50,436 bases of DNA, taken from NCBI RefSeq assembly GCF_020252405.1, contig NZ_JADCDA010000051.1, positions 1-50,436 on the forward strand, written 5' to 3'. A program made the position numbers and the translations under genes. The notes below the pieces were generated by a model. The model did not search any database. It was given only the letters and a program-made list of their open reading frames with translations, and was not told where the DNA came from. This document shows positions 4,381 to 49,460 of the stretch, one piece after another. How positions within the stretch are numbered: the stretch's first letter is position 1; every line of letters begins with the position of its first letter. This stretch comes from Aestuariivirga sp. GTDB lineage: Bacteria > Pseudomonadota > Alphaproteobacteria > Rhizobiales > Aestuariivirgaceae.

Positions 4381-4467
4381 GCCACGGCCTGACCGGAACA
4401 TGCGCCAGATCAAAAGCTTGAGCATGATCCTGTCGCAAAAGCGGTTCCACTTCTGCGGATCATGCTC
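4381..4467 (-). repeat. Dispersed GAGCATGATC palindromic repeat, copy R1
   Basis: Read on the minus strand this copy has module A, opening GAGCATGATCCGC and closing GGATCATGCTC, then the linker CTTTTGATCTGGCGCATG and the start of module B (TTCCGGTCAGGCCG). Related copies occur near 44374, 47329 and 49283. It lies in the gap before def and may fold into a hairpin in the def leader. It has the look of the small interspersed palindromic repeats known from Rhizobiales genomes. Confidence 0.75.
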
Positions 4468-24643: not shown

Positions 24644-25714
24644 ATGAGTCTCGCCACTCTCGAACAGTCAATACTCGCGGAGATCGCAGCCGCCGGCGAT
24701 GAGGCTTCGCTCGAAGCCGTGCGCGTCTCGGCGCTGGGCAAGAAGGGCTCGATCTCCGAGCGCATGAAGGGCTTGGGCGCCATGAGCCCCGAGGCGCGCA
24801 AGGAGGCGGGCGCCACGCTCAACGTGCTCAAGGACAAGCTGTCCGACGCGCTCTCAGCCCGCAAGGCCGCGCTGCAGGAAGCAGCACTCGAAGCGAGGCT
24901 GGCCTCCGAGAAAATCGACGTCACGCTGCCCGTGCGGCCGCAGGTGACGGGCACGGTCCACCCCGTGTCCCAGGTGTGGGAAGAAGTGGTGCAGATCTTC
25001 GGCGACCTCGGCTTCTCCGTGGCGGAAGGCCCGCACATCGAGGACGACTTCCACAATTTCGATGCGCTGAACATTCCCCCCGAACACCCCGCGCGGCAGG
25101 AACATGACACCTTCTTCTTCAGCGAGAAGGCGGACGGTTCGCGCATGCTGCTGAGGACGCACACGAGCCCGGTGCAGATCCGCACCATGCTGGCCTCGAA
25201 GCCGCCCATCCGCATCATCGCGCCCGGCCGCACCTTCCGCTGCGATTCGGACATGACGCACACGCCCATGTTCAACCAGGTCGAGGGCCTCGTCATCGAC
25301 GGGACGACGACGCTCGCCAATCTCAAATGGGTCTTGACCGAATTCTGCAAGGCCTTCTTCGAGGTCGATGATGTGAGGATGCGCTTCCGCGCCTCGCACT
25401 TTCCCTTCACCGAGCCGTCGATGGAAGTCGATATCCAGTATTCGCGCGAGGGCGGGCAACTGAAGATCGGCGCCGGCGACAAGTGGCTGGAGATTCTGGG
25501 CTCCGGAATGGTGCACCCGAATGTCATCCGCAGCGGAGGCATGGACCCTGACCAAGTCCAGGGCTGGGCCTTCGGCGTGGGGCTGGACCGCATCGCCATG
25601 CTGAAATACGGCATCCCCGATCTCCGCGCCTTCTTCGAAGCCGACCTGCGCTGGCTTCGCCACTATGGATTCAGGGCACTCCAGGCGCCGACCCTGGCGG
25701 GAGGGTTGTCGTGA
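24644..25714 (+). CDS. pheS: Phenylalanyl-tRNA synthetase alpha subunit
   Basis: The catalytic subunit that charges tRNA-Phe. The 356-residue product has an N-terminal coiled-coil arm (about 1-85), motif 1 near [10 protein letters not shown], motif 2 [18 protein letters not shown], and motif 3 [18 protein letters not shown]. The partner pheT normally follows directly. Here a DUF559 gene and a broken copy of the pheT 5' end lie between the two. Confidence 0.96.
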
Positions 25715-25787
25715 CTTCCCCTCACTTGCTCCGCGAACGGAACCTTCTCTCCCGCTGCGCGGGCGAGATTGAACGGCACGTTTTCAA

Positions 25788-25810
25788 CCTCTCCCGCGTA
25801 GCGGGAGAGG
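25788..25810 (+). repeat. CTCTCCCGC hairpin before the pheT remnant
   Basis: CCTCTCCCGC and GCGGGAGAGG flank a three-base GTA loop, a perfect stem. A nearly identical hairpin ends at 26407, just before the intact pheT. The second halves of both hairpins continue into the duplicated pheT start, so hairpin and gene start were copied as one block. Confidence 0.7.
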
Positions 25811-25930
25811 ACATAAGGAAGCACTCCCATGAAATTCACCCTCTCCTGGCTCAAGGACTGTCTCGACACCACCGCGCCGCTTGAGGAGAGGTCGAGGAGG
25901 TCACCGACACGGCCAAGCTGTTCGCCTCTT
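25801..25930 (+). pseudogene. Displaced remnant of the pheT 5' end
   Basis: From 25801 to 25859 the sequence is identical to 26398-26456, covering the ribosome binding site, the ATG (25829) and the first ten codons of pheT. One mismatch and 15 more matches follow. After that the copy lacks about 33 bases and is shifted, yet GTCGAGGAGGTCACCGAC still matches the pheT region for VEEATD with several changes. The frame is broken, so no product is expected beyond a short peptide. The copy is cut off where the left inverted repeat of the DUF559 unit begins. It may be the older pheT start. Confidence 0.8.
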
Positions 25931-25933
25931 CGT

Positions 25934-26407
25934 CTTCTCCCGCACGGCGGGAGAAGAAGGGGACCCATTGCGCAGCAATGGGGGAGATGAGGGGACGCTG
26001 ATGCGCGAAGGCCAGAAAACCTTCACGGCAAGACGCCTGCGCAAGGACGAGACGCTTGCCGAGAAGCGCCTGTGGGAGCAGCTGCGCAGCCGCACGCTGG
26101 ACGGCTGCAAGTTCGTGCGCCAGTCTCCCATCGGACCGTACATCGCGGACTTCATATGCCGCGAGCATAAGCTGATCGTCGAAGCGGACGGCGCGACCCA
26201 TTCGACTGCAGCACAGCTTGAGCATGATCGCCTGCGCACGCAGGACCTGGAAGCGGAGGGATTTCGCGTCCTGCGCTTCCAGAACGATGAACTTCTCAAC
26301 GGCATGGATGAAGTGCTGACCATCATCCGCAGCGCTCTCGCCCGTGTCCCCTCACCTCCCCCGTCGCTGCGCGACGGGTCCCCTTCCTCTCCCGCAGGCG
26401 GGAGAGG
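25934..26407 (+). mobile_element. DUF559 gene unit bounded by 60-bp inverted repeats
   Basis: The left arm at 25934-25995 (62 bases) and right arm at 26347-26407 (61 bases) are inverted copies with only about ten differences. Each has a CTCTCCCGC-type hairpin at its outer end, then GGGGACCC, a second small hairpin around GCGCAGC, and an inner GGGGGAG-x-TGAGGGGA. Between them is one DUF559 gene. The unit separates a pheT remnant from the intact pheT. No transposase is present, so it resembles a compact selfish or cargo element that relies on the encoded endonuclease-like protein or on host recombination. Confidence 0.65.
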
Positions 26408-26429
26408 ACATAAGGAAGCACTCCCATGA
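26001..26429 (+). CDS. DUF559 endonuclease-like protein
   Basis: A 142-residue protein with a DUF559 domain at about 8-112, a Vsr-like PD-(D/E)xK nuclease fold. Likely catalytic acids are Asp50 in PYIADFIC and Glu61 in IVEADGATH; the family-typical GFRVLRFQNDEL follows near 87-98. The family is common and chromosomal in Rhizobiales, and its activity is not established. The ATG at 26001 matches the usual family N-terminus. Residues from about 116 to the end, rich in Pro and Gly, are encoded by the right inverted repeat. The TGA overlaps the pheT ATG (ATGA). Confidence 0.85.
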   Translation: MREGQKTFTARRLRKDETLAEKRLWEQLRSRTLDGCKFVRQSPIGPYIADFICREHKLIVEADGATHSTAAQLEHDRLRTQDLEAEGFRVLRFQNDELLNGMDEVLTIIRSALARVPSPPPSLRDGSPSSPAGGRGHKEALP

Positions 26430-28819
26430 AATTCACCCTCTCCTGGCTCAAGGACTATCTCGACACCACCGCCACCCTCGATGAAATCTGCGAGGGCCTG
26501 GTCGGCGTCGGCCTTGAGGTGGAAGAGGCCACCGACAAGACCAAGCTGCTCGCCGACTTCACCGTGGCCCACGTCATGCTGGCCGAGAAGCACCCCAATG
26601 CCGACAAGCTGCGCCTGTGCGCGGTGGAGACGAAGGACGGCACGAAGCAGGTGGTCTGCGGCGCCCCCAATGCGCGCACCGGCATCAAGGCGATCATCGC
26701 ATTGCCCGGCGTCACCATTCCGGCGACGGGTGCGGTGTTCGCGCCCGCCACGATCCGCGGTGTCGAATCCCAGGCCATGCTGTGCTCGGAGCGCGAGCTG
26801 CTGATCTCGGATGAGCACGACGGCATCATCGAGGTCGAAGGCGACTGGCCGGTGGGAACGCCTGCGGCGAAGGCGCTGGGCCTCGACGACCCGATGATCT
26901 ACGTCAAGGTCACGCCCAACCGCCCCGATGCGCTCGGCATCTATGGCATCGCGCGCGATCTGGCGGCGAAGGGCTTGGGGACACTGAGGCCGCTCGACGC
27001 CGGGAAGGTGGAGGGCACGTTCGACTCCCCCATCAAGGTCTCTCTCGACTTCCCCGATGGCGATACGAGGCCCTGCCCGCTGTTCGTCGGGCGTTACATC
27101 AGGGGCATGAAGAACGGCCCCTCGCCCGAATGGCTGCAGCGCCGCCTGAAGGCCATCGGCCTGCGCCCGATCTCGACACTCGTCGATGTCACCAACTACA
27201 TCACCTTCGCCTATGGCCGCCCGCTGCATGTGTTCGATGCGGACAAGGTGAAGGGCGCGGTCCGCGCGCGGCCAGCGAAGGACGGCGAGATGCTGGAGGC
27301 GCTCGACAACAAGACCTACACGCTGTCCGAAGGCATGACGGTGATCGCGGATGACGCTGGCCTCGAGGCCATCGCCGGCATCATCGGCGGCATTCCGTCG
27401 AGCTGCACGGATGACACCGTGAACGTCTTCCTCGAAGCCGCCTATTTCGATCCGCTGCGCACCGCCGCCACGGGCCGCAGGCTCGGCATCACCTCGGATG
27501 CGCGCTACCGCTTCGAGCGCGGCGTGGACCCGGCCTTTACACCGGTGGGTTCCGAGATCGCCACGCGCATGATCCTCGATCTCTGCGGCGGCGAAGCCTC
27601 GCATGTCGTCGTTGTAGGCGCGGTGCCCGATACTTCGCGCAGTTACACGCTGCGCAAGACCCGCGTTGCCTCGCTGGCGGGCGTGGAGATTCCCGTGGCG
27701 CGCCAGAAGGAGATCCTCGCGGCGCTGGGCTATGGCGTCACCGAGACGGCCGATGCCCTCACCTGCTCGGCGCCCTCGTGGCGGCCCGACATCCATGGCG
27801 AGGCCGATCTCGTGGAGGAGGTCATCCGCATCTGGGGCCTCGACAACATTCCCGCCCGGCCGATGGAGCGCGCCAGCGCCATTGCGAAGCCGGTGCTGAA
27901 CCCGCTGCAGAAGCGCATGCTGGGGGCGCGGCGGGCGCTCGCGTCGCGCGGCTTCAACGAGGCGATCACCTGGGCCTTCCTGTCCGAGGAGCACGCCAGG
28001 CTCTTCGGCGGCGGCCAGCCGGAGCTGAAGCTCGCCAATCCGATCTCCTCGGAACTCTCCGACATGCGCCCCTCGCTGCTGCCGAACCTGATCGCGGCGG
28101 CGGGCCGCAACATGGACCGCGGCTTCGCCGACATGATGCTGGCCGAAGTGGGCCACGCCTATGCCGGCGACCAGCCGAAGGATGAGACGCTGCGCGCCGC
28201 CGGCCTCCGCCGCGGCGCCTTCACCGGGCGCAACGTGCACGGGGGCGCCCGCGCCGTCGATGCCTTCGATGCCAAGGCCGATGCGCTGGCCGTGCTCGAA
28301 GCGGCAGGCGCAGCCGTGGCGACACTGCAGGTCGTCGCCGGCGCCCCCGCCTGGTTCCACCCGGGCCGGTCCGGCGCCATCCAGATGGGCCCGCAGAACA
28401 AGCTGGGCTTCTTCGGCGAGATCCATCCACGCGTGCTCGGCCAGATGGACGTGAAGGGTCCGCTTGTGGCGTTCGAGATCATCCTCACCGCCATCCCCGG
28501 CTCGAAGTCCAGGGGCGCCACGCGTGCCGCCCTGGTCATCTCCGATCTCATGCCGCTGTCGCGCGACTTCGCCTTCGTGGTGGACGACGCGGTGGAGGCC
28601 GACAAGCTGGTGAAGGCCGCGAAGGGTGCGGACAAGGCGCTGATCGCCGACGTCACCGTCTTCGATCTCTACAAGCTGGAGGGGGGTAAGAAATCGCTCG
28701 CCATCGAGGTGACGCTGCAGCCCAAGGACAAGACGCTGACCGAACCGGAGATCGAAGCCGTCTCGCAGAAGATCGTGCAGGCCGTGACCAAGGCCACCGG
28801 CGGGACATTGAGGAGCTGA
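26426..28819 (+). CDS. pheT: Phenylalanyl-tRNA synthetase beta subunit
   Basis: The 797-residue partner of PheS for charging tRNA-Phe, including editing of mischarged Tyr. It opens [14 protein letters not shown], then has the EMAP-like tRNA-binding domain (about 40-150), the B3/B4 editing domain (about 210-385), B5, the inactive synthetase core, and the C-terminal anticodon-binding domain with [14 protein letters not shown]. It is intact although a DUF559 unit sits directly upstream, and it shares an ATGA overlap with that gene. pgi starts one base after its stop. Confidence 0.96.
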
Positions 28820-44373: not shown

Positions 44374-44476
44374 GGCATGATCCGCAAGAGTCCGTTCCAC
44401 TCCTGCGGTTGATGCTCAGGCTTTTGATCTGGCGCATGTTCCGTCCAGGCGATTCCGCGTGAACGGAACATGCGCT
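44374..44476 (+). repeat. Dispersed GAGCATGATC palindromic repeat, copy R2
   Basis: This copy lies in the 293-base spacer between the ends of ppc and the start of the transporter operon. It has a diverged module A (GGCATGATCCGCAAGAG then GATGCTC), the linker CTTTTGATCTGGCGCATG, and a full module B in which GCGCATGTTCCG pairs with CGGAACATGCGC around GTCCAGGCGATTCCGCGTGAA. The spacer holds no gene. Confidence 0.75.
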
Positions 44477-47328: not shown

Positions 47329-47388
47329 CAAAAGTGCAACCCGCTTTTGCGACAGGATCATGCTCCAGCATATGATCCGGCGCATGAC
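47329..47388 (+). repeat. Dispersed GAGCATGATC palindromic repeat, copy R3 (partial)
   Basis: It has the second part of module A, from CGCAAAAGTG to GCGACAGGATCATGCTC, then a shortened linker and CGGCGCATGA. It sits in the spacer between the divergent ppc and ABC-F genes, about 30 bases before the ABC-F start, and may affect that leader. Confidence 0.65.
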
Positions 47389-49282: not shown

Positions 49283-49460
49283 GAGCATGATCCGCAAAAG
49301 TGGAACCGGTTTTGCGATTAAGATCATGCTCAAGTTTTTTGATCTGGCGCATGATCCGCAAAAGTGGAACCGGTTTGGCGATTAAGATCATGCTCAAGTT
49401 TTTTGATCTGGCGCATGATCTTTTCGTTCAGGCGGGTCCGCCTGACCGGATCATGCGCCG
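49283..49460 (+). repeat. Tandem GAGCATGATC repeat, copy R4
   Basis: Two module-A copies lie in tandem at a 64-base period: GCATGATCC starts at 49285 and 49349, and GCATGATC again at 49413, which opens a module B. Copies differ at very few bases (TTTTGCG versus TTTGGCG), so the duplication is recent. The last part runs into the 3' end of holC and supplies its stop codon region. It also separates the convergent ABC-F and holC genes. Confidence 0.8.

Follow-up and report, generated by a model that had tools for sequence, protein, structure and literature searches.

The 50,436-nucleotide stretch of Aestuariivirga sp. DNA analysed here (contig NZ_JADCDA010000051.1, hereafter the window) carries between the genes pheS and pheT a compact unit in which two inverted arms enclose a gene of the DUF559 family, and the question raised by this locus is whether such a unit can move and, if so, by means of which enzyme. 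A sequence-only reading of the window had described two inverted arms with two hairpins each around a single DUF559 gene, and had suggested that the unit is or was mobile. The anatomy was confirmed. The arms are about 63 nt long, their ungapped core (25947-25996 and 26346-26395) is complementary at 88% over 50 nt, and the hairpins of both arms are perfectly paired. Aligned in inverted orientation, the two flanks scored 41; among 958 controls of identical geometry taken from the window, the highest score was 17. The left arm ends inwardly with GAGATGAGGGG (25984-25994) and the right arm with CCCCTCACCT. The encoded protein belongs to DUF559 (PF04480, 127.7 bits, E 2.2e-37); its reading frame extends across the right arm and ends in a TGA that overlaps the ATG of pheT (ATGA, 26426-26429). 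We propose that the unit is probably the autonomous form of a small selfish element working in the manner of REPIN/RAYT systems (doublets of REP, or repetitive extragenic palindromic, sequences and their tyrosine transposase), with an enzyme of the Vsr/I-Bth0305I fold in place of the transposase.

The arms are dispersed in the genome to which the window belongs, and the possibility that they are confined to this single unit was ruled out by these copies. The hairpin pattern CTTCTCCC-N-GGGAGAAG was found 79 times, compared to 2 DUF559 genes, and the reversed pattern used as a control was not found. The second DUF559 gene lies at an unrelated site and is also enclosed by such palindromes. Among the dispersed copies are doublets of the arm type present in the window (type C). 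A search that permitted spacers of 25-55 nt only gave 18 pattern matches, of which 17 were judged real by inspection and 1 was due to chance. In these doublets the same two ends are retained and a spacer of 28-36 nt replaces the gene: they share with the window unit both the left end GTCTTCTCCC...GAGATGAGGG and the differing right end CCCTCACCT...CTCTCCC...GGGAGAGGAC. Short doublets having both ends in common with a longer, gene-bearing unit are a trait of miniature inverted-repeat transposable elements. Only one right-right doublet and no type-C left-left doublet were found, the 12 left-left matches comprising 11 doublets of another arm type (type A) and 1 chance match. The left arm of the window was nearer to the left arms of the doublets in 18/18 comparisons, one of them with the chance match. 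The sequence-only reading had held that arms occurring mostly without DUF559 would speak against it; taken formally, this is what was found (79 hairpins of one pattern and 17 type-C doublets, compared to 2 genes), and we read the gene-less arms as non-autonomous derivatives of the autonomous copy, so that they strengthen the case for mobility. As a separate observation, seven type-A doublets (C9, C28, C29, C71, C87, C92, C94) have an identical spacer, three of them at most 150 nt from a contig start, and apparently lie inside a longer composite repeat.

Arms of this kind accompany DUF559 genes in other genomes. When 61 genomes were searched, 43 contained DUF559 matches, 99 in total. The analysis covered 92 of these loci, from 42 genomes including the window's own; the remaining 7, partial or decayed, were left out. 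An inward-pointing arm was present on at least one side in 86/92 loci and on both sides in 59/92, compared to 60/1463 and 0/1463 for pseudo-units placed on the same contigs. The five top words were enriched 45- to 78-fold within 200 nt of DUF559, and the density of CTTCTCCC fell at least 26-fold beyond 200 nt (72 loci). With the strict pattern, wide inward arm pairs enclosed DUF559 and no other gene, in loci that had been chosen for DUF559; the two pairs scored as "other" were the two units of genome G005, each seen from the record of the other. In addition, G070 has palindromic arms, by eye, at eight of nine fetched DUF559 matches (the ninth, a weak match, has none) and G072 has a partial DUF559 match between arms. 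When loci were ordered by the DUF559 tree, the arms within a clade looked alike by eye. Nearest-neighbour arm similarity exceeded that in 2000/2000 within-genome shuffles after exclusion of 122 same-site pairs. As units on short contigs can hide further pairs of this kind, a stricter subset of 63 units with long flanks, in which same-site pairs are recognisable, was also used, and the coupling there exceeded 1968/2000 shuffles, 32 not being exceeded. Of the associations that the sequence-only reading had proposed to look for, that of arms with DUF559 genes was found in the loci inspected, and arm type tended to go with DUF559 clade.

The association extends to several phyla. Among 80 named loci, the signature was present on any side in 64/78 testable loci and on both sides in 21/78 (controls 39/915 and 4/915); it was found upstream in 62/78 and downstream in 23/78 (controls 22/915 and 21/915). 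The inverted-flank score exceeded the 99th percentile of controls in 37/77 loci and did not in 40, and 5 loci exceeded the control maximum. L170 and L209 had too short a flank, and L200, whose high score was due solely to a run of N, was dropped from the redone score and kept in the 78. In six of 47 matching plasmid-collection records inspected by eye, palindromes were present near DUF559 in each. Outside the Alphaproteobacteria, palindromes next to the gene were seen in individual records of gammaproteobacterial, planctomycete, cyanobacterial and Deinococcus origin. By eye, the palindromes of the Escherichia coli record are only downstream of the gene, and in the Deinococcus record the tails point outward. 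The E. coli gene is followed on its 3' side by a 45-nt palindrome (L260, 1996-2040), for which a permissive E limit of 10 gave matches in 5377/5426 E. coli genomes (median 19 places each); it is probably box C.

The number of palindromes was then related to the presence of DUF559 in 192 genomes of the class, the window's own being left out and 17 genomes with only weak DUF559 matches being kept apart; the limit of 15 was applied to raw counts. The median count of palindromes of the first pattern was 17 in genomes with DUF559 (n=45), 3 in those with a weak match (n=17) and 1 in those without (n=129). At least 15 palindromes were present in 26/45, 2/17 and 0/129 genomes, respectively. Adding a second pattern (CCTCCCC-N-GGGGAGG) brought in six more genomes with DUF559 and one without, giving 32/45 compared to 1/129; control counts were also high in one genome, G105 (16 and 75). 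Within families, the genome with DUF559 held more palindromes in 14/16 comparisons, two of which have a weak-match partner.

Evidence for movement came from sites where the unit is present in some genomes and absent in others. The pheS-pheT junction was inspected in 30 of the 33 genomes of the genus with a pheT match, open frames being judged by eye. Thirteen junctions were empty, pheS and pheT overlapping by ATGA, seven held a DUF559 unit, three held repeats only (G016, G005, G017) and seven held other sequence. The sequence-only reading had regarded a lack of empty sites in relatives as evidence against it, and such sites make up 13 of the 30. Furthermore, genome G005 carries the whole unit twice, 8 kb apart, the copies being 87% identical over 676 bp. 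The region of similarity extends from the outer border of one arm to about 30 nt beyond the other, and the compared flanks are unrelated. Combined, the junctions and the two copies support the suggestion that the unit is, or once was, mobile; its further part, that the encoded nuclease drives the movement, is one that we infer. The junction is in its own right a hot spot for cargo in the genus: among the junctions of relatives (L087-L116), the seven with other sequence often contain a single open frame by eye, and the frame at the G012 junction, again by eye, resembles a TIR-type or nucleotide-binding protein.

Concerning the enzyme, DUF559 was the sole Pfam match above cut-off in the unit and the fold matches are Vsr-like, no tyrosine (HUH/Y1) transposase being found by these comparisons. 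Profile and structure comparisons assign DUF559 a Vsr-like catalytic fold of the PD-(D/E)XK or EDxHD kind, with conserved acidic and histidine residues, and among relatives of solved structure and known role the nearest is the homing endonuclease I-Bth0305I. According to a review, I-Bth0305I dimerises on a target nearly 60 bp long (PMC3943268), and another paper places a DUF559 gene in the EDxHD homing endonuclease family (PMC9403480). The statement of the sequence-only reading that DUF559 has no accepted role is in part outdated, since a 2026 report describes the Caulobacter DUF559 protein VsrA as a Vsr-like endonuclease, functionally linked to a cytosine methyltransferase (PMC12907096). A role in anti-phage defence was considered and set aside: PADLOC matches were weak, the best for the window protein having an E of 4.5e-4 (a homing endonuclease model) and the best among four proteins an E of 4.2e-6.

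According to the mechanism that we propose, the ends of the element would be the REP-like arms, in distinct left and right forms, and its sole gene would be the DUF559 nuclease. Judging from sequence, the nuclease would most likely recognise its own arm type, probably as an extruded or single-stranded hairpin, and cut there. Host repair or replication would then copy the element elsewhere, and the short doublets, with spacers of about 30 nt, would be internally deleted, non-autonomous copies mobilised in trans. We infer all three of its central steps, namely the cutting of the arms by DUF559, the driving of copying by this cutting and the mode of integration.

Several observations weigh against this proposal. 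No cleavage or movement was observed. No clean target-site duplication was found in G005 or at pheS-pheT, where only ATGA is present and is needed by both genes. The window copy is associated instead with a duplication of 139-169 nt, in which the leader and beginning of pheT recur 5' of the unit, with an internal deletion in the first copy; it has the appearance of a product of repair and suggests repair between palindromes. The right arm of the window was nearer to the right than to the left arms of doublets in only 9/18 comparisons. The arm signature was defined after the flanks in which it was counted had been viewed, although its controls were taken from the same contigs. The coupling of arms to clades was weaker in the stricter subset, so that the first value owes a part to same-site pairs that went unrecognised. 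With respect to palindrome number, the contrast was weak inside the genus of the window (31 genomes with and 5 without DUF559, p 0.045), fewer than 15 palindromes of either pattern were present in 13/45 genomes with DUF559, and two genomes without a DUF559 match were rich in palindromes: G080 with 64 of the second pattern and G011, of 87% completeness, with 69 of the first. The limits used (15 matches, E 1e-20) were fixed after the tables were viewed. Finally, the correlation has no direction, and DUF559 might need the repeats rather than make them.

According to the main rival, repeats of host or other origin are the targets of a homing gene, DUF559, that cuts them and copies itself by break repair. 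The role of I-Bth0305I and the length of its target, close to that of the arms, are in line with homing, as is the duplication of pheT by the window unit, which resembles break repair between palindromes. We nevertheless consider it unlikely, as none of the 129 genomes without DUF559 reached 15 palindromes of the first pattern and the gene-less doublets retain the two different ends of the unit, as would be expected of deletion derivatives more than of bare targets. It is more doubtful still that another enzyme or general recombination moves the arms and that DUF559 is their cargo, perhaps for mismatch repair of the Vsr type. Such a passenger role would agree with the tie of VsrA to a methyltransferase and with the few palindrome-rich genomes that have no DUF559 match (G080, G011); against it, in the loci inspected, which had been chosen for DUF559, no other gene was found inside a wide inward arm pair, and the DUF559 clade tends to predict the arm type.

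We regard as very improbable that the arms are ordinary intergenic palindromes, such as terminators or hairpins stabilising RNA, lying next to the gene by chance. The sequences do fold, and the mismatch found in type-A arms (described below) would be a G-U pair in RNA. Chance hairpins and terminators were ruled out by the enrichment of words around DUF559, by the controls of the arm signature, none of which had arms on both sides, and by the inverted-flank scores. The occurrence of the doublets in multiple copies with fixed ends and the relation of palindrome number to DUF559 presence contradict them as well.

Among known systems, the proposed selfish element works like REPIN/RAYT, which is described as having dispersed inverted palindrome doublets, a gene flanked by palindromes and several types that coexist in a genome and each have a gene of their own (PMC3116915). 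Here too, doublets of constrained spacing were found, and DUF559 is flanked by palindromes matching its own type, the own-type link being weaker in the strict subset. The unit is not a member of this group because its enzyme, a Vsr-fold nuclease rather than a tyrosine transposase, is from another superfamily. RAYTs are moreover single-copy and not self-mobile according to the same text (PMC3116915), whereas the DUF559 unit occurs twice in G005. From the EDxHD homing endonucleases, with which the fold is shared, the unit differs in that the gene is free-standing, encodes a single domain and lies inside palindromic inverted arms, no intron or intein being seen here. A homing endonuclease of this kind cuts a defined allele that lacks the insert and places a copy of itself there; at pheS-pheT, both empty and filled sites occur. 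Compared to Vsr and Caulobacter VsrA, the partner found for DUF559 here is the palindromic arm.

The CGTC-tagged REPs of Di Nocera (2013) are described as alphaproteobacterial, mostly dimers and devoid of a dedicated transposase, with stems of 8-9 bp that begin with AT and, in most cases, a CCA tail (PMC3733652). The type-C doublets carry the tag too: at their left ends (n=17) it is CGTC in 12, TGTC in 4 and GGTC in 1, and at their right ends (n=17) CGTC in 7, TGTC in 2, another sequence in 2 and not found in 6. By eye, the other arm types are without it. Identity with plain CGTC REPs was rejected, as the outer stems of type C start with TT or CT, not AT; type C also has a second hairpin and a GAGGG terminus. 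Typical CGTC dimers are present as separate repeats: a head-to-head dimer of a different palindrome (GTCATTCCGGCGAATGCCGGAATCC...) that resembles the CGTC type lies at 167-254 of the window, and similar dimers were seen by eye at the pheS-pheT junction of four relatives (G005, G017, G025, G036).

It is possible, and we put it forward tentatively, that the element represents a widespread selfish class, in Alphaproteobacteria and beyond, in which hairpin-ended DNA is copied by a Vsr-fold nuclease and no transposase takes part. Such a nuclease would be the mobiliser so far lacking for many "orphan" palindromic repeats, perhaps also for E. coli repeats and for some of the CGTC-tagged group. To our knowledge, the rhizobial RIME, Brucella Bru-RS and E. 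coli box C are palindromic intergenic repeats without a known mobiliser; they are set beside the DUF559 arms by description only. The 2013 survey tied GTAG palindromes to RAYT, reported the CGTC group as lacking a dedicated transposase and left the mobiliser of the rest open (PMC3733652). In the literature searched, which left most subscription journals and preprints out of reach, we found no report linking DUF559 to palindromes, and no paper joining REPIN/RAYT with Alphaproteobacteria or repetitive extragenic palindromic repeats with a Vsr nuclease. A large group of repeats without a known mobiliser gains a candidate enzyme here; the proposal would also account for several DUF559 copies per genome and, if true, would add a transposase-free way to move DNA.

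Within this wider class, a G.T mismatch in the hairpin of one arm type may be recognised, mismatch-repair chemistry being turned into a transposition signal. A strict count of type-A arms overlooked those with longer loops or variant tails; in it, the pair adjoining the GGGAG stem was G.T in 28/42, the other 14 being C.C, C.A or C.G and none G.C, A.T or A.C. A relaxed count of type-A arms with a purine at that position gave 33/36 G.T and 3/36 G.C. The inner stem of these arms varies with compensating changes. Vsr repair nucleases nick the T:G mismatches that deamination of 5-methylcytosine leaves behind. It is suggestive, as a lead only, that a Vsr-like nuclease could read the mismatch in an extruded type-A hairpin. 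The mismatch was rejected as a general rule because of the three G.C pairs and the incompleteness of the strict count, and was not used as a clue for the window, where the hairpins are perfect.

Table 1. Features in and around the DUF559 unit of the window
Feature	Position	Strand	Basis
pheS, upstream host gene	24644..25714	+	junction comparison
Two extra palindromes, 25747-25767 and 25789-25809	25747..25809	.	sequence; relatives G001 and G030 match here by eye
pheT' remnant, copy of the 5' end of pheT, truncated and with an internal deletion	25829..25926	+	duplication 25788-25926 / 26386-26554
Left arm, REP-like, type C	25932..25994	.	outer hairpin 25934-25956, inner hairpin 25964-25982
DUF559 gene, 142 aa	26001..26429	+	only gene between the arms; Pfam and fold matches
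Right arm, REP-like, type C	26348..26409	.	inner hairpin 26360-26378, outer hairpin 26387-26406
pheT, downstream host gene	26426..28819	+	junction comparison

The two extra palindromes between pheS and the unit are probably traces of an earlier insertion. Another dispersed repeat, of the form GAGCATGATCCGCAAAAGTGGAACCGGTTTTGCGA, occupies at least five sites in the window (4387-4467, 44407-44450, 47341-47386, 49283-49317 and 49349-49381).
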